DNA of 17,997 bases from a bacterium (GTDB lineage Bacteria; CG2-30-53-67; CG2-30-70-394), in the NCBI GenBank assembly GCA_024278555.1, contig JAJRSX010000180.1, positions 1-17,997 on the forward strand, written 5' to 3'. The notes under the pieces are model-generated. The model had not been told where the DNA came from and searched no databases. It was given only the letters and a program-made list of their open reading frames with translations. Each line of letters opens with the position of its first letter. Within the stretch, counting starts at the first letter, position 1. This document shows, in pieces, positions 1,530 through 13,019 of the stretch. Made by a program: the position numbers and the translations under genes.

Positions 1530-2330
1530 ATGTCACCACGGAAGCGCTTCTCGAATCTGTCGTTGTGGATCGCACTCTTCGGTTTGATCGCCGTGTTCTC
1601 CATGGCGCCGCCCGCCGTTGCCGCAGATCAGTGTGTCTCCTGTCACAGTGATGCCGCCTGGGCGGTGAAGAACAAGAAGCTCTTTGATTACTACCAGCAG
1701 TGGCAGGGGTCGGTGCACGGCCTCAACGGGGTCACCTGTGTCGACTGCCACGGCGGTGATTCGCGGGCGACGGACAAGACGGCGGCCCACGGCGGTGCCC
1801 TGGCCGAGAGCAACCCGAAGAGCGCCATCTACTACGGCAACATCCCGAAGCTGTGCGGCGGCTGCCACGAAGATGTCTACCGCGCCTTCGCGCGCAGCAA
1901 GCACGCGGCGCGGGTCAAGGAGCTGGACGGCGGCCCCACCTGCGTCACCTGCCACGGGTCGCTGAACACCGAGATCCTCTCGCCCTTGAAGATTGCCTCG
2001 GTGTGTGAGCGGTGCCACAACGACGTCACCGGCAACCGGCCGAACATCCCGGCGCGGGCGCAGGCGGTACGCCGCGACGATCAGATGAGCGCCGCCTTCC
2101 TGCGCTGGGCCGGGGCGTACTACGAGGCGGTCGGGCAGCCAGAGGAGGTCGCGCCGCTCCAGAAGCAGCTCGCCGACCTGCGGGTGGCGTGGCACACCTT
2201 CGACCTCGACCGGGTGCAGGGGAGCTACGAGGCGATCGTCAAGGGGCTGCGCGAGCGGCAGAAGGCGATCCAGCGCGCGAAGCTGGAGGAGAAGAAGCGC
2301 GCCGCCCGGTCCAAGGCAAAGAAGAGGTAG
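1530..2330 (+). CDS. Periplasmic pentahaem c-type cytochrome
   Basis: A 266-residue exported electron-transfer protein. A Sec signal peptide (positively charged start, hydrophobic core about residues 10-26, then AVAA) precedes five CXXCH haem c attachment sites at about residues 35, 70, 109, 138 and 159 (CVSCH, CVDCH, CGGCH, CVTCH, CERCH). Extra histidines such as SVHG and SKHAAR can supply distal ligands. From about residue 175 there are no haem sites; this tail is helical and ends in a very Lys/Arg-rich stretch, which could contact membrane lipids or partners. The ATG at 1530 is chosen over the upstream GTG frame start because GGAGGAGG (1514-1521) sits 8 bases before it and it yields a proper signal peptide. 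It is the first gene of the operon behind the sigma-54 promoter and presumably the soluble cytochrome arm of the NrfD complex encoded downstream. The exact named family is not recognised. Confidence 0.88.
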   Translation: MSPRKRFSNLSLWIALFGLIAVFSMAPPAVAADQCVSCHSDAAWAVKNKKLFDYYQQWQGSVHGLNGVTCVDCHGGDSRATDKTAAHGGALAESNPKSAIYYGNIPKLCGGCHEDVYRAFARSKHAARVKELDGGPTCVTCHGSLNTEILSPLKIASVCERCHNDVTGNRPNIPARAQAVRRDDQMSAAFLRWAGAYYEAVGQPEEVAPLQKQLADLRVAWHTFDLDRVQGSYEAIVKGLRERQKAIQRAKLEEKKRAARSKAKKR

Positions 2331-2355
2331 CTACCGGAGGGGCGGACGATGATTA

Positions 2356-2367
2356 ACCACAGAGACA
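2356..2367 (+). repeat. 12-base match to the 17.8 kb inverted-repeat element
   Basis: ACCACAGAGACA here is identical to 17782-17793, the arm of an inverted repeat near the window's end. It is followed at once by AAGGAG, which serves as ribosome binding site for the ATG at 2382. It may be a remnant of a small repeat element inserted between the two cytochrome genes. Twelve bases can match by chance, so this is tentative. Confidence 0.25.
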
Positions 2368-2381
2368 AGGAGCGACCTTTC

Positions 2382-2786
2382 ATGGCGAAGCTCATTCGAT
2401 CGGTGGCCGGGATCGCCACGGCAACAGGCCTAGCCGTGTTGGTCGCCGCGCCACCGGCCACCGCCACCGTCAAGATGGCGGAGGCCACGAACCAGGGGTG
2501 CAATTTTTGCCACCCCAAGGACATCCGCATCGCCGGACCTGCCGGTCTCTACTACCAAGAGAACGGCACCCTCGACGGCTACGAGGGGATTGAGGTGGCG
2601 GAGAGGCTCACCGCCGACGACTGCCTCGGCTGTCACGATGAGGACTGGGAGACCAACCCGCAAAGACGCAAGCTGGAGGACCCGCACGCGGACAAGGCGG
2701 AGCTCAAGCACGGCGACGGTGCCTTCTGGTGCCTGCGCTGCCACTCGGCGGACCACCGCAACAAGCTGAAGCTGATGACCGGTTAG
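2382..2786 (+). CDS. Membrane-anchored pentahaem cytochrome c, N-terminal part up to an in-frame TAG
   Basis: The N-terminal 134 residues of a multihaem cytochrome: signal peptide (about residues 1-29, core GLAVLVAAPPATA) and three CXXCH sites at residues 40, 81 and 117 (CNFCH, CLGCH, CLRCH). The frame then meets TAG at 2784-2786. Coding continues in the same frame to 3086 with two more haem motifs and a membrane helix, so this is one gene interrupted by a single nonsense codon. Start: AAGGAG (2368-2373) lies 8 bases before ATG 2382. An alternative ATG at 2349 with GGAGG (2336-2340) adds 11 residues. The family's likely role is to hand electrons between the quinone-linked NrfD/ferredoxin module and periplasmic cytochromes. 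As written, the product would have three haems and no anchor. A genuine mutation, a sequencing error or readthrough are all possible. Confidence 0.8.
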   Translation: MAKLIRSVAGIATATGLAVLVAAPPATATVKMAEATNQGCNFCHPKDIRIAGPAGLYYQENGTLDGYEGIEVAERLTADDCLGCHDEDWETNPQRRKLEDPHADKAELKHGDGAFWCLRCHSADHRNKLKLMTG

Positions 2787-3086
2787 GAGATCGATTGGAA
2801 GGATGCGCCGCGTCTGTGCGGCCAGTGCCACGGCCCCATCTACCGCGACTGGAAGGCGCACATCCACGGCCGCTGGGTCGGCGAGATCGCCAACGCCACC
2901 CCGGCGCGCATCTGCCCCGATTGTCACAACCCGCATGACCCGAAGTTCAAGCAGCTCCCCCCGGAGCCGGCACCGCAACACCCTGCGGCCGCACCCGCGG
3001 CGGGGGACCTCTCCTTCGTGTTCATCGGGGGGGCGATCTTTGCCCTGTTGCTCACCATTTATGCCGCTACCGGTAGGAGGGACTGA
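2787..3086 (+). pseudogene. Continuation of the pentahaem cytochrome after the in-frame TAG
   Basis: Directly after the TAG the same frame reads EIDWKDAPRLCGQCH and on to a TGA at 3084-3086. It contains two more haem sites (CGQCH, CPDCH), a Pro/Ala-rich linker and a hydrophobic segment (FVFIGGAIFALLLTIYA) ending in RRD, a typical C-terminal single-pass anchor. The TGA overlaps the ATG of the ferredoxin gene (TGATG), the expected coupling inside this operon. The stretch shows no frameshift or second stop, so it has not decayed. The codon at the interruption could have been CAG (Gln), or one of several others one base from TAG. Without suppression this part is not translated, because I see no good internal start with a ribosome site. 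Confidence 0.72.
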
Positions 3087-4072
3087 TGGCCACGCCCGAC
3101 CGCACCCCGGCGCGTCCGACCCCCGAGCCGCGCCCTCTCACCCTCAAACCGGCGCCTCCATCCTCGAAGCGTCCGGTGTCGCGTCGCGACTTCCTGCGCC
3201 GTGCCGGCCAGGGGACCGCCGCCCTCGCGGTGACCACCCTCGTGCCCAAAGACTTCCTGGGCCGGCCGAAGATCTTCTCCAAGGAGGACTTCTCCCTGAA
3301 GCACTTCGTGGAGATGACCGCGGAGGAGAAGGCGAAGCGGGTCCATGAGCTCGAAGAGATCTACCGCAAGCGGTTCAACGACGACCGGATCTCGATCTCC
3401 ACCACCCCGGCGAAGGAGGGGGTCCTGTGGGGCTACGCCCTGAACATCGGCAAGTGCGTCGGTTGCCGCCGCTGCGTGAAGGCGTGCGTCGGTGAGAACA
3501 ACCAGTCGCGCGACCCGGAGATCGAGTGGATCCGCGTCCTTGAGATGGAAAAGGGGACGATGGAGCTCGACGAGAGCAACTGCTACTACGACCACGAGCG
3601 GGTGCCGGAGGAAGACCACTACTACATGCCGGTCCAGTGCCAGCAGTGTGAGAACCCTCCGTGCGTCAAGGTGTGCCCCACCACCGCCACCTGGCAGGAG
3701 AAGGACGGCATCGTGGTGGTCGACTACAACTGGTGCATCGGCTGTCGCTTCTGCCTCGCCGCCTGCCCCTACTTCGCCCGCCGCTTCAACTGGGGAGAGC
3801 CGACCTGGAACGGTGCCGTCAACCCCAACATGCACTACCTGGGGAACCGGCCGCGCTTCAAGGGGGTGATGGAGAAGTGCACCTTCTGCATCCAGCGCTC
3901 CCGCGAGGGCCAGTACACCGCCTGTGTTGAGGCGTGTCCGGTGGGGGCACGGAAGTTCGGCAACCTGCTCGACGAGAAGAGCGAGATTCGCCAGCTCATC
4001 GCCACTAAACGGGTCTTCCGTCTGAAGGAAGAGGCGGGGACCCATCCCAAGTTTTTCTACTTCATCGATTAG
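3086..4072 (+). CDS. Tat-exported 4x[4Fe-4S] ferredoxin subunit (DsrO/HmcB/NrfC-like)
   Basis: A 328-residue iron-sulphur subunit of an NrfD-type quinone complex. A twin-arginine signal SRRDFL (residues 32-37) followed by a modest hydrophobic stretch shows export as a folded protein. Its n-region of about 30 residues is unusually long and proline-rich. Four cysteine groups are visible in the order usual for this family: CVGCRRCVKAC, CQQCENPPCVKVCP, CIGCRFCLAACP and CTFCIQRS...CVEACP, enough for four [4Fe-4S] clusters. The ATG at 3086 overlaps the preceding stop (TGATG) and has GGAGG 5-6 bases upstream; a GTG just before the RR motif has no ribosome site. Known relatives pass electrons between the NrfD quinone site and cytochromes. 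The gene sits directly before the NrfD partner, as expected. Which named complex it belongs to cannot be settled here. Confidence 0.93.
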   Translation: MATPDRTPARPTPEPRPLTLKPAPPSSKRPVSRRDFLRRAGQGTAALAVTTLVPKDFLGRPKIFSKEDFSLKHFVEMTAEEKAKRVHELEEIYRKRFNDDRISISTTPAKEGVLWGYALNIGKCVGCRRCVKACVGENNQSRDPEIEWIRVLEMEKGTMELDESNCYYDHERVPEEDHYYMPVQCQQCENPPCVKVCPTTATWQEKDGIVVVDYNWCIGCRFCLAACPYFARRFNWGEPTWNGAVNPNMHYLGNRPRFKGVMEKCTFCIQRSREGQYTACVEACPVGARKFGNLLDEKSEIRQLIATKRVFRLKEEAGTHPKFFYFID

Positions 4073-4087
4073 CAGCCCGGAGCGACC

Positions 4088-5311
4088 ATGAAGTTTCTCC
4101 AGTTCGTCGGCGCCTCCGTCCGGATCGCCCTCACCGGCTCGAAGCGGTACTACGCCTGGCTCCTTGCCTGTCTCACGGTGACCCTGGTGGGGTTCTACTA
4201 CTACCTGTACCAACTCGAGCACGGCCTGATCGTCACCGGTATGCGCGATCAGGTGAGCTGGGGCTCCTACATCGCCAACTTCACCTTCTTCGTCGGGGTG
4301 GCGGCGGCGGCGGTGATGATCGTCATCCCTGCCTACCTCTACCACGTCACCGACTTCAAGCCGGTGACCCTCCTCGGCGAGATGCTCGCCGCCTCCGCCC
4401 TGATCATGTGCATCTGCTTCGTGATGATCGATATGGGGCGGCCGGATCGCGTCTGGCACCTCCTGCCGGTGATCGGTAAACCGAACTTTCCGGTGTCGTT
4501 GTTGTGTTGGGATGTGATCGTCCTGAGCGGCTATCTCATTATCAATCTCTTCATCCCCGGCTACATGCTCTACTCCGTCTACCACCACAAGGAGGCGAGC
4601 AAAAAGATTCTCTTGCCGTTTACCTACCTGTCGGTGCCGTGGGCGGTCTCCATCCACACGGTGACCGCCTTTCTCTACTGCGGTTTGGTGTCGCGGCCGG
4701 TGTGGAACACGGCGCTGATGGCGCCCCGCTTTCTCGCCACCGCCTTTGCCGCGGGGCCGGCGCTGATCATCATCATCATCCAGATCGTGCGGCGGTATAC
4801 GCCGTACGGCAGTCCCGGTGAGAAGTTTGAGATCCCCAATGAGACGATCTACAAGATCGCCAACATCGTCGTCGTTGCGCTCCTCATCTCCCTCTTCTTT
4901 ACCTTCTCCGAGGTCTTTACCATCTTCTACAGTGCCGGGGCCCACAAGGCGTCGATGGCCTACCTCTACTTCGGCTTCGACGGCCACCCCTCCCTTCTCA
5001 CCCCGTACATCTGGGCCTCCCTGGTGATGAACGTGGTGGCGGCGGTCATTCTCCTTATCCCGGCGACGCGGAAGAACCTCATCACCCTCAACATGGCCTG
5101 CATCCTGCTGTTCATCGGGATCTGGATCGAGAAGGGGATGGGGACGGTCCTGCCCGCCTTCATCCCCTCTCCCCTCGGCGAGATCTGGGAGTACTGGCCG
5201 TCCAACCCGGAGGCCCTGATCACCCTCGGGGTCTGGGGGCTCGGTGCCCTGGTCTTCACCATGCTGGCGAAGATCGCCATCCAGATCGAGACCGGCGACG
5301 TGGGCCGGTAG
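4088..5311 (+). CDS. NrfD/PsrC-family integral membrane quinone oxidoreductase subunit (DsrP/HmcC-like)
   Basis: A 407-residue polytopic membrane protein with about ten hydrophobic segments spread over the whole length, beginning around residue 20 (YAWLLACLTVTLVGFYYYLY). NrfD-family proteins bind quinone or quinol in the cytoplasmic membrane and exchange electrons with a periplasmic ferredoxin subunit, here the gene 15 bases upstream. Short conserved features include GSYIANFTFFVGVAAAAV in the second membrane segment, MIDMGRPDRVWHL after the third, and the C-terminal PSPLGEIWEYWPS loop. The length and the presence of a C-terminal helix pair fit the DsrP/HmcC branch (roughly 380-420 residues) better than short NrfD (about 320). 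The ribosome site GGAG lies 5 bases before ATG 4088. Direction of electron flow, quinol oxidation or quinone reduction, cannot be told; the multihaem partners favour quinol oxidation. Confidence 0.92.
   Translation: MKFLQFVGASVRIALTGSKRYYAWLLACLTVTLVGFYYYLYQLEHGLIVTGMRDQVSWGSYIANFTFFVGVAAAAVMIVIPAYLYHVTDFKPVTLLGEMLAASALIMCICFVMIDMGRPDRVWHLLPVIGKPNFPVSLLCWDVIVLSGYLIINLFIPGYMLYSVYHHKEASKKILLPFTYLSVPWAVSIHTVTAFLYCGLVSRPVWNTALMAPRFLATAFAAGPALIIIIIQIVRRYTPYGSPGEKFEIPNETIYKIANIVVVALLISLFFTFSEVFTIFYSAGAHKASMAYLYFGFDGHPSLLTPYIWASLVMNVVAAVILLIPATRKNLITLNMACILLFIGIWIEKGMGTVLPAFIPSPLGEIWEYWPSNPEALITLGVWGLGALVFTMLAKIAIQIETGDVGR

Positions 5312-11624: not shown

Positions 11625-11628
<4 letters not shown>
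10108..11628 (+). CDS. Membrane histidine kinase with a haem-c motif (CXXCH) in its sensor domain
   Basis: A 506-residue sensor kinase. Order: transmembrane helix (about 11-29), periplasmic sensor region (30-178), second helix (about 180-200), HAMP linker ([10 protein letters not shown] to about 250), phosphoacceptor domain with [10 protein letters not shown] (His282), and a complete ATPase domain with the N box [13 protein letters not shown]1 DTGPGIP, F box FEPLFTT and G2 GTGLGLS. The sensor contains PECGQCHH (Cys146, Cys149, His150), a perfect site for covalent haem c in the compartment where haem is attached, so it probably senses redox state, oxygen or NO through haem. The product should phosphorylate the NtrC-type regulator whose GTG start overlaps its stop (GTGA). 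No clear ribosome site precedes ATG 10108; a small hairpin, AGGGG/CCCCT (10076-10092), lies just upstream. Haem attachment itself is inferred. Confidence 0.93.
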
Positions 11629-12419
<791 letters not shown>

Positions 12420-13019
12420 AATCGCACCATCCGCCGGGTCGGCGGGGTCGACGACATCGCCGTGGACCTGCGGGTGATCGCCGCCACCAACCGCGACCTC
12501 TCCCAGCGGGTCGACGAGGGCGAGTTCCGCGCCGACCTCTACTACCGTCTCAATGTCCTCCCCATCCACCTCCCCCCCCTGCGCGAGCGCCAGGGAGATG
12601 CGGAGCTTTTGGTCCGCTACTTCCTCGACCACCTCAACCGGGAGATGGGTAAGCAGGTACGGACCATCGGCGACGACGCCCTCGCCTGCCTCGCTGCCTA
12701 TGCTTGGCCGGGCAACGTGCGCGAGCTGAGAAACGTGATTGAGCGGGCCCACATCCTCGCCGACGGCGAGCGGATTGAGGTGAGCGACCTGCCGGCGGAG
12801 GTGCGTGGCGCGGCGGGCGGCGGCGCGGCGCCGGCAGCCGGCGCGGCCGCCCCCTTCGACCTCCCCGAGCAGGGGATCGACCTCGAGAAGATCGAGCGAC
12901 GGTTGCTGAGCGAAGCCCTCGACCGTACCCATGGCAACCAGACCCAGGCCGCCGCGCTCCTCGGCCTCGGCCGAGACGCCCTGCGCTACCGGATGAAGAA
13001 GTTCGGCATGATGGAGTAG
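12420..13019 (+). pseudogene. NtrC-type regulator, C-terminal part after the in-frame TAA
   Basis: Same frame as the upstream part and intact: the rest of the AAA+ domain (NRTIRRVGG, IAATNRDL, YYRLNVLPIHLPPLRER with the arginine finger region, WPGNVRELRNVIERA), a Gly/Ala/Pro linker (about 12810-12850), and a Fis-type helix-turn-helix (THGNQTQAAALLGLGRDALRYRMKKFG). Every expected segment is there, with no second stop or frameshift. The join needs one residue, for which Gln (CAA) fits by a single C-to-T change. A GTG at 12462 could only start a short, ATPase-dead fragment with the DNA-binding domain, which might act as a competitor at the operator (speculative). Stop codon is TAG at 13017-13019. 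Confidence 0.8.

Follow-up and report, generated by a model that had tools for sequence, protein, structure and literature searches.

Gene content of the locus

The window, by which we mean the whole 17,997-nt stretch of DNA analysed here, holds at positions 1533–5311 of its forward strand an operon that reads as a version of the DsrJOP layout enriched in haem. Its first gene (1533–2330) encodes a multihaem cytochrome matching the cytochrome c7/c3 families of Pfam; it is followed by a frame for a pentahaem c-type cytochrome (2382–3086), a gene for a DsrO-like 4Fe-4S protein (3086–4072; Pfam Fer4, NCBIfam DsrO) and one for a DsrP-like membrane protein of the NrfD family (4088–5311; Pfam NrfD, NCBIfam DsrP). 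The DsrP-like protein scores 408.5 bits against its model (NF045798, cut-off 350) and can be counted as a member of that family; the DsrO-like protein reaches 195.9 bits against NF045797, below the cut-off of 200, and falls outside it. All three neighbours of the pentahaem frame end in TAG. The combination of haem c, 4Fe-4S and NrfD-type membrane subunits in one operon is that of the DsrMKJOP, QrcABCD and NrfABCD systems of the NrfD family, but here the haem subunit is a pentahaem protein with a C-terminal anchor and lies beside a second multihaem protein. At the edge of the window, the contig start truncates a gene for EpmA/GenX, the EF-P lysyl ligase, leaving its C-terminal part at 51–539.

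The pentahaem frame runs from an ATG at 2382 to a TGA at 3084–3086, which overlaps the start of the DsrO-like gene as TGATG, and is interrupted at codon 135 by a TAG (2784–2786). Translated through this codon, it gives a protein with a signal-like N-terminal stretch, five CxxCH motifs and a hydrophobic C-terminal stretch (3009–3071), which translation and alignment suggest is a membrane anchor. Three of the motifs precede the TAG, namely CNFCH at residue 40 (2499–2513), CLGCH at residue 81 (2622–2636) and CLRCH at residue 117 (2730–2744), and two follow it, CGQCH at residue 146 (2817–2831) and CPDCH at residue 178 (2913–2927), all in one frame. The original prediction had described this arrangement and had seen no other damage in the gene; we confirm both points, the frame being otherwise intact and its identity to the closest relative being equal on the two sides of the stop. 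None of the curated Pfam and NCBIfam profiles apart from generic multihaem domains was matched above its own cut-off. The first in-frame start-type codon 3’ of the TAG is a GTG at 3018, beyond the last CxxCH, so that no haem protein of its own could be produced from the second half.

The stop column in relatives

We compared the frame with that of a genome of the same genus, Nitrospirae bacterium CG2_30_70_394 (G001; the genome of the window is G000), and with homologues from six genomes of the same class. The G001 orthologue (L032/L003) is open throughout and 79% identical (79.1% over the 134 residues before the stop and 79.8% over the 99 after it), and it has GAG, for glutamate, at the TAG column; it also has the hydrophobic C-terminal stretch. 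The six class-level homologues have four haems and no C-terminal anchor in the alignment, and they too are open, with lysine, arginine or glutamine at the column. The suggestion that the TAG arose from a CAG glutamine codon is thus at odds with the same-genus orthologue, and a homologue ending naturally at this point, which would have argued for two proteins, occurs in none of the seven relatives. With both sides conserved and all seven relatives open, the change must be very recent, and the frame was selected as one protein until then.

It had also been proposed that the TAG is read through in a programmed manner, yielding a soluble triheme form and an anchored pentahaem form. The domain layout would permit this, with three haems before the stop and two haems plus the anchor after it. 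However, the stop is kept at the column in none of the seven relatives, and the split would fall between haems 3 and 4, within the most conserved haem stretch, which forms a single chain in all seven. Stops of this kind, which share no context, interrupt some twelve unrelated G000 genes, and no tRNA that would decode them was found (see below for both), so the two-form proposal is not supported and we regard programmed readthrough as very improbable.

In-frame stops may stem from sequencing error, pseudogenes or annotation artefacts, or may be functional premature stops, and in one survey they were accepted only if common to orthologues of at least two species, which excludes sequencing error (PMC7918605). 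The TAG at 2784–2786 resembles the cases collected there in being a single in-frame stop in an otherwise functional-looking gene, but, being common to no relative, it fails this two-species rule.

Similar stops elsewhere in the genome

A TAG in lysS, met during a search for PylS, prompted a census of stops flanked on either side by coding sequence. The census covered 1.24 Mb of the 3.06 Mb of G000 (40%), sampled as stretches that were mostly contigs taken by number, with some picked for tRNA genes or for the lysS locus; it relied on codon score and inspection by eye, and its count is approximate. We found about 12 isolated in-frame TAG or TAA codons in unrelated, otherwise intact genes, while 0.49 Mb sampled from G001 yielded none. 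The pentahaem TAG, described at first as a single stop, is therefore not unique: the window itself holds a second, a TAA at 12417–12419 in a forward-strand frame for an NtrC-type response regulator (11625–13019; 88% identical to its orthologue, which has GAG), and some ten more lie in the other stretches. The TAG in lysS (L040, 1510–1512, on contig C56 at about base 19009–19011) replaces a codon that is glutamate in all relatives compared, and G000 has only one full-length copy of this gene, identified by a match to an NCBIfam equivalog. Further TAGs interrupt genes for a beta-propeller protein (L078), a CbbQ/NorQ-type ATPase (L091), an aminotransferase (L097), a NadB/fumarate-reductase-like flavoprotein (L103), a DsrE-type protein (L135), a multihaem protein (L253), a PhoB-type regulator (L255) and MotB (L265), and a TAA interrupts an RND-type permease gene (L197); apart from lysS, the family names in this census come from reading the sequence rather than from profile search. 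Candidates such as those at window position 4070 and in L079, L084, L086, L141, L148, L195, L204, L260 and L263 were discarded by eye, being either the natural end of a gene followed by another start or stops in a wrong frame.

By type, the census contains ten TAG, two TAA and, apart from one likely selenocysteine codon, no TGA, which fits the ratio of about 69:15:16 (TAG:TAA:TGA) expected of single-base changes from the codon usage of G000. The exceptional TGA lies on the minus strand of L251 (609–611), in a gene for a SAM-dependent methyltransferase that is ArsM/UbiE-like by eye. G000 has selB, a homologue in genome G005 also has one TGA within the match, and the position is one where cysteine seems usual; this methyltransferase is likely a selenoprotein. 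On the minus strand of L091 (about 17855–19011) we also observed a frameshift relative to the G001 orthologue (between frames -3 and -2), for which an erroneous indel in this assembly may be responsible.

The census bears on the proposal that a very young mutation has disabled the pentahaem gene, or that a variant of a sub-population has entered the consensus; in either case only a soluble triheme fragment, or no product at all, would remain. That the gene carries one stop and no other decay, with its relatives open, agrees with such a mutation, and the recency of the change stands. But a dozen genes share the pattern, one of them indispensable, and a single mutation would leave the other genes unaccounted for, although a mixed population could account for them. 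Because some 12 unrelated genes, including the sole lysS, carry the same kind of stop, a reading specific to this gene is not supported, nor is the part of the proposal that saw a disablement particular to the cytochrome. We consider a real loss of function here, or such a population variant, rather improbable.

Decoding machinery and terminator use

In-frame stops in critical genes are a classical sign of stop-codon reassignment, and G000 shares this sign with the known cases in bacteria and phages. If this lineage decoded some of its UAG and UAA codons, genome-wide, as glutamate or glutamine, with UAG still terminating most genes, single in-frame UAR codons would be tolerated in any gene. 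This would account for such codons in about 12 intact genes, the sole lysS among them, including several UAGs in conserved or essential genes, and for the presence of both TAG and TAA alongside the absence of TGA other than the likely selenocysteine codon. The decoding apparatus, on the other hand, looks ordinary. No CUA-anticodon tRNA was found among the 48 tRNAs of G000 with a covariance model or ARAGORN (a UUA anticodon was covered by the covariance model only), and a pattern search for CUA loops matched only ordinary tRNA-Leu and tRNA-Gly. The tRNA-Gln(CUG) and tRNA-Glu(CUC) appear ordinary and differ little from their G001 counterparts, and RF1 is intact (533.9 bits, over its cut-off).

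Terminator use points the same way. TAG makes up 198 of 478 terminal stops in G000 (41%), against 42% in G001, and ends 8 of the 14 window genes checked. G000 shows no enrichment of back-up stops downstream of TAG, so that we see neither avoidance of UAG nor a safeguard behind it. Were UAG strongly suppressed, much of the proteome would be extended.

Pyrrolysine, for which TAG is the codon, can be given next to no credence. The best match to PylS in G000 scored 29 bits against a cut-off of 178, the matches being related class II synthetases, and the N-terminal domain of PylC had no match (pylB and pylD were outside the search). With no CUA tRNA either, with TAA codons among the sites and with a stop column that varies among relatives, we rejected this reading, as far as an incomplete assembly allows.

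All bacterial reassignments known at the time of a screen of bacteria and phages concern UGA, as that study states (PMC8629427). In those known cases UGA is accompanied by a matching tRNA, whereas in G000 the codons would be UAR, reassigned rarely and with no such tRNA, in a genome where UAG ends 41% of genes.

Residues at the sites and substitution spectrum

Nine of the sites have a same-genus orthologue, and the residue there is glutamate at seven, glutamine at one and aspartate at one, all nine thus being Glu, Gln or Asp columns. Under uniform substitution, given the codon usage, glutamate is expected at 34% of TAR sites, and at least seven of nine has a probability of 0.01 (0.05 with both window sites omitted), which favours decoding as a particular amino acid. 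Under a spectrum weighted towards G>T/C>A, glutamate is expected at 60–66% of TAR sites and the same probability becomes 0.24–0.36. G>T-biased error also predicts glutamate, and the bias is therefore compatible both with such error and with reassignment to one amino acid. Glutamine for UAR would in turn favour CAG>TAG sites, but glutamine is found at only one of the nine.

G:C>T:A is the type of change that converts GAG to TAG, and we looked at it between G000 and G001 with calibration on transitions, the comparison being unpolarised and lacking an outgroup. The excess in G000 has an odds ratio of 3.2 (p = 2e-5) among radical replacements and of 1.2 (p = 0.03) among synonymous changes. The excess is far smaller at third positions than at replacement positions, so most of it must reflect amino-acid composition, and we dropped the nonsynonymous G>T/C>A asymmetry as a plain signature of error; the residual is what error would explain. 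Over the 34–39 thousand codons aligned between the two genomes, replacements lean strongly towards G:C>T:A, for example with Ala>Glu at 125 against 43 and Ala>Asp at 58 against 15. With hardly any asymmetry at synonymous sites, this appears to be a proteome-wide acidic shift in G000, or a shift away from acidic residues in G001.

Taken with the ordinary decoding apparatus and terminator use, these data lead us to consider ambiguous UAR decoding unlikely, though worth keeping in mind. The fuller proposal, that a free-living bacterial lineage near CG2_30_70_394 is at an early stage of UAR reassignment, reading UAG and UAA as glutamate (or glutamine) at a few dozen sites and as stops elsewhere without a dedicated suppressor tRNA, seems doubtful to us. 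If the stops are real, G000 would be one of few bacteria that keep RF1 intact yet decode UAR ambiguously.

A consensus error as the probable source of the stops

The explanation that we find probable, judging from the sequence, is that the TAG is a G>T-biased single-base error in a draft metagenome consensus, and that the gene in the cell encodes an ordinary pentahaem subunit. We favour sequence error because the stops are scattered, an indispensable gene is hit, their types are those of single-base changes, no decoder is found and no stop is conserved. A living cell cannot do without lysS, and hits spread across unrelated genes, their types in the proportions given by single-base changes, are the pattern that error would leave. 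The glutamate bias agrees with a G>T/C>A-weighted spectrum, and an excess of that type appears in the comparison with G001. On this explanation, a G to T change at position 2784 would have turned GAG (the glutamate codon that the sister species has) into TAG in the draft consensus, in an assembly whose substitution errors would lean towards G:C>T:A. The gene in the cell would encode one membrane-anchored pentahaem cytochrome, presumably co-translated through the TGATG overlap with the DsrO-like iron-sulphur protein and the DsrP-like membrane protein, and may link the quinone pool to periplasmic cytochromes by electron transfer. Both the wrong base call and the electron-transfer role are what we infer.

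Several observations speak against error. At 211 contigs, the assembly has a completeness rating of 100%, and we estimate that roughly one substitution per 2–3 kb would be needed, a high rate for a consensus built from short reads. Most of the G:C>T:A asymmetry, moreover, must be compositional rather than error. The 23S rRNA carries 21 own-genome changes against 39 in G001, with no excess, in a comparison that has no power at the rate needed; at conserved columns of four affected proteins, missense changes beyond the stops number 7 against 14, again with no excess and no power. The Glu/Gln pattern, finally, is one that genome-wide leaky UAR reading would give as well. If the stops are errors, the 12 seen in 40% of the genome would extrapolate to perhaps some thirty false stops in this metagenome-assembled genome, and it would be wrong to conclude from them that genes, lysS included, are missing or split.
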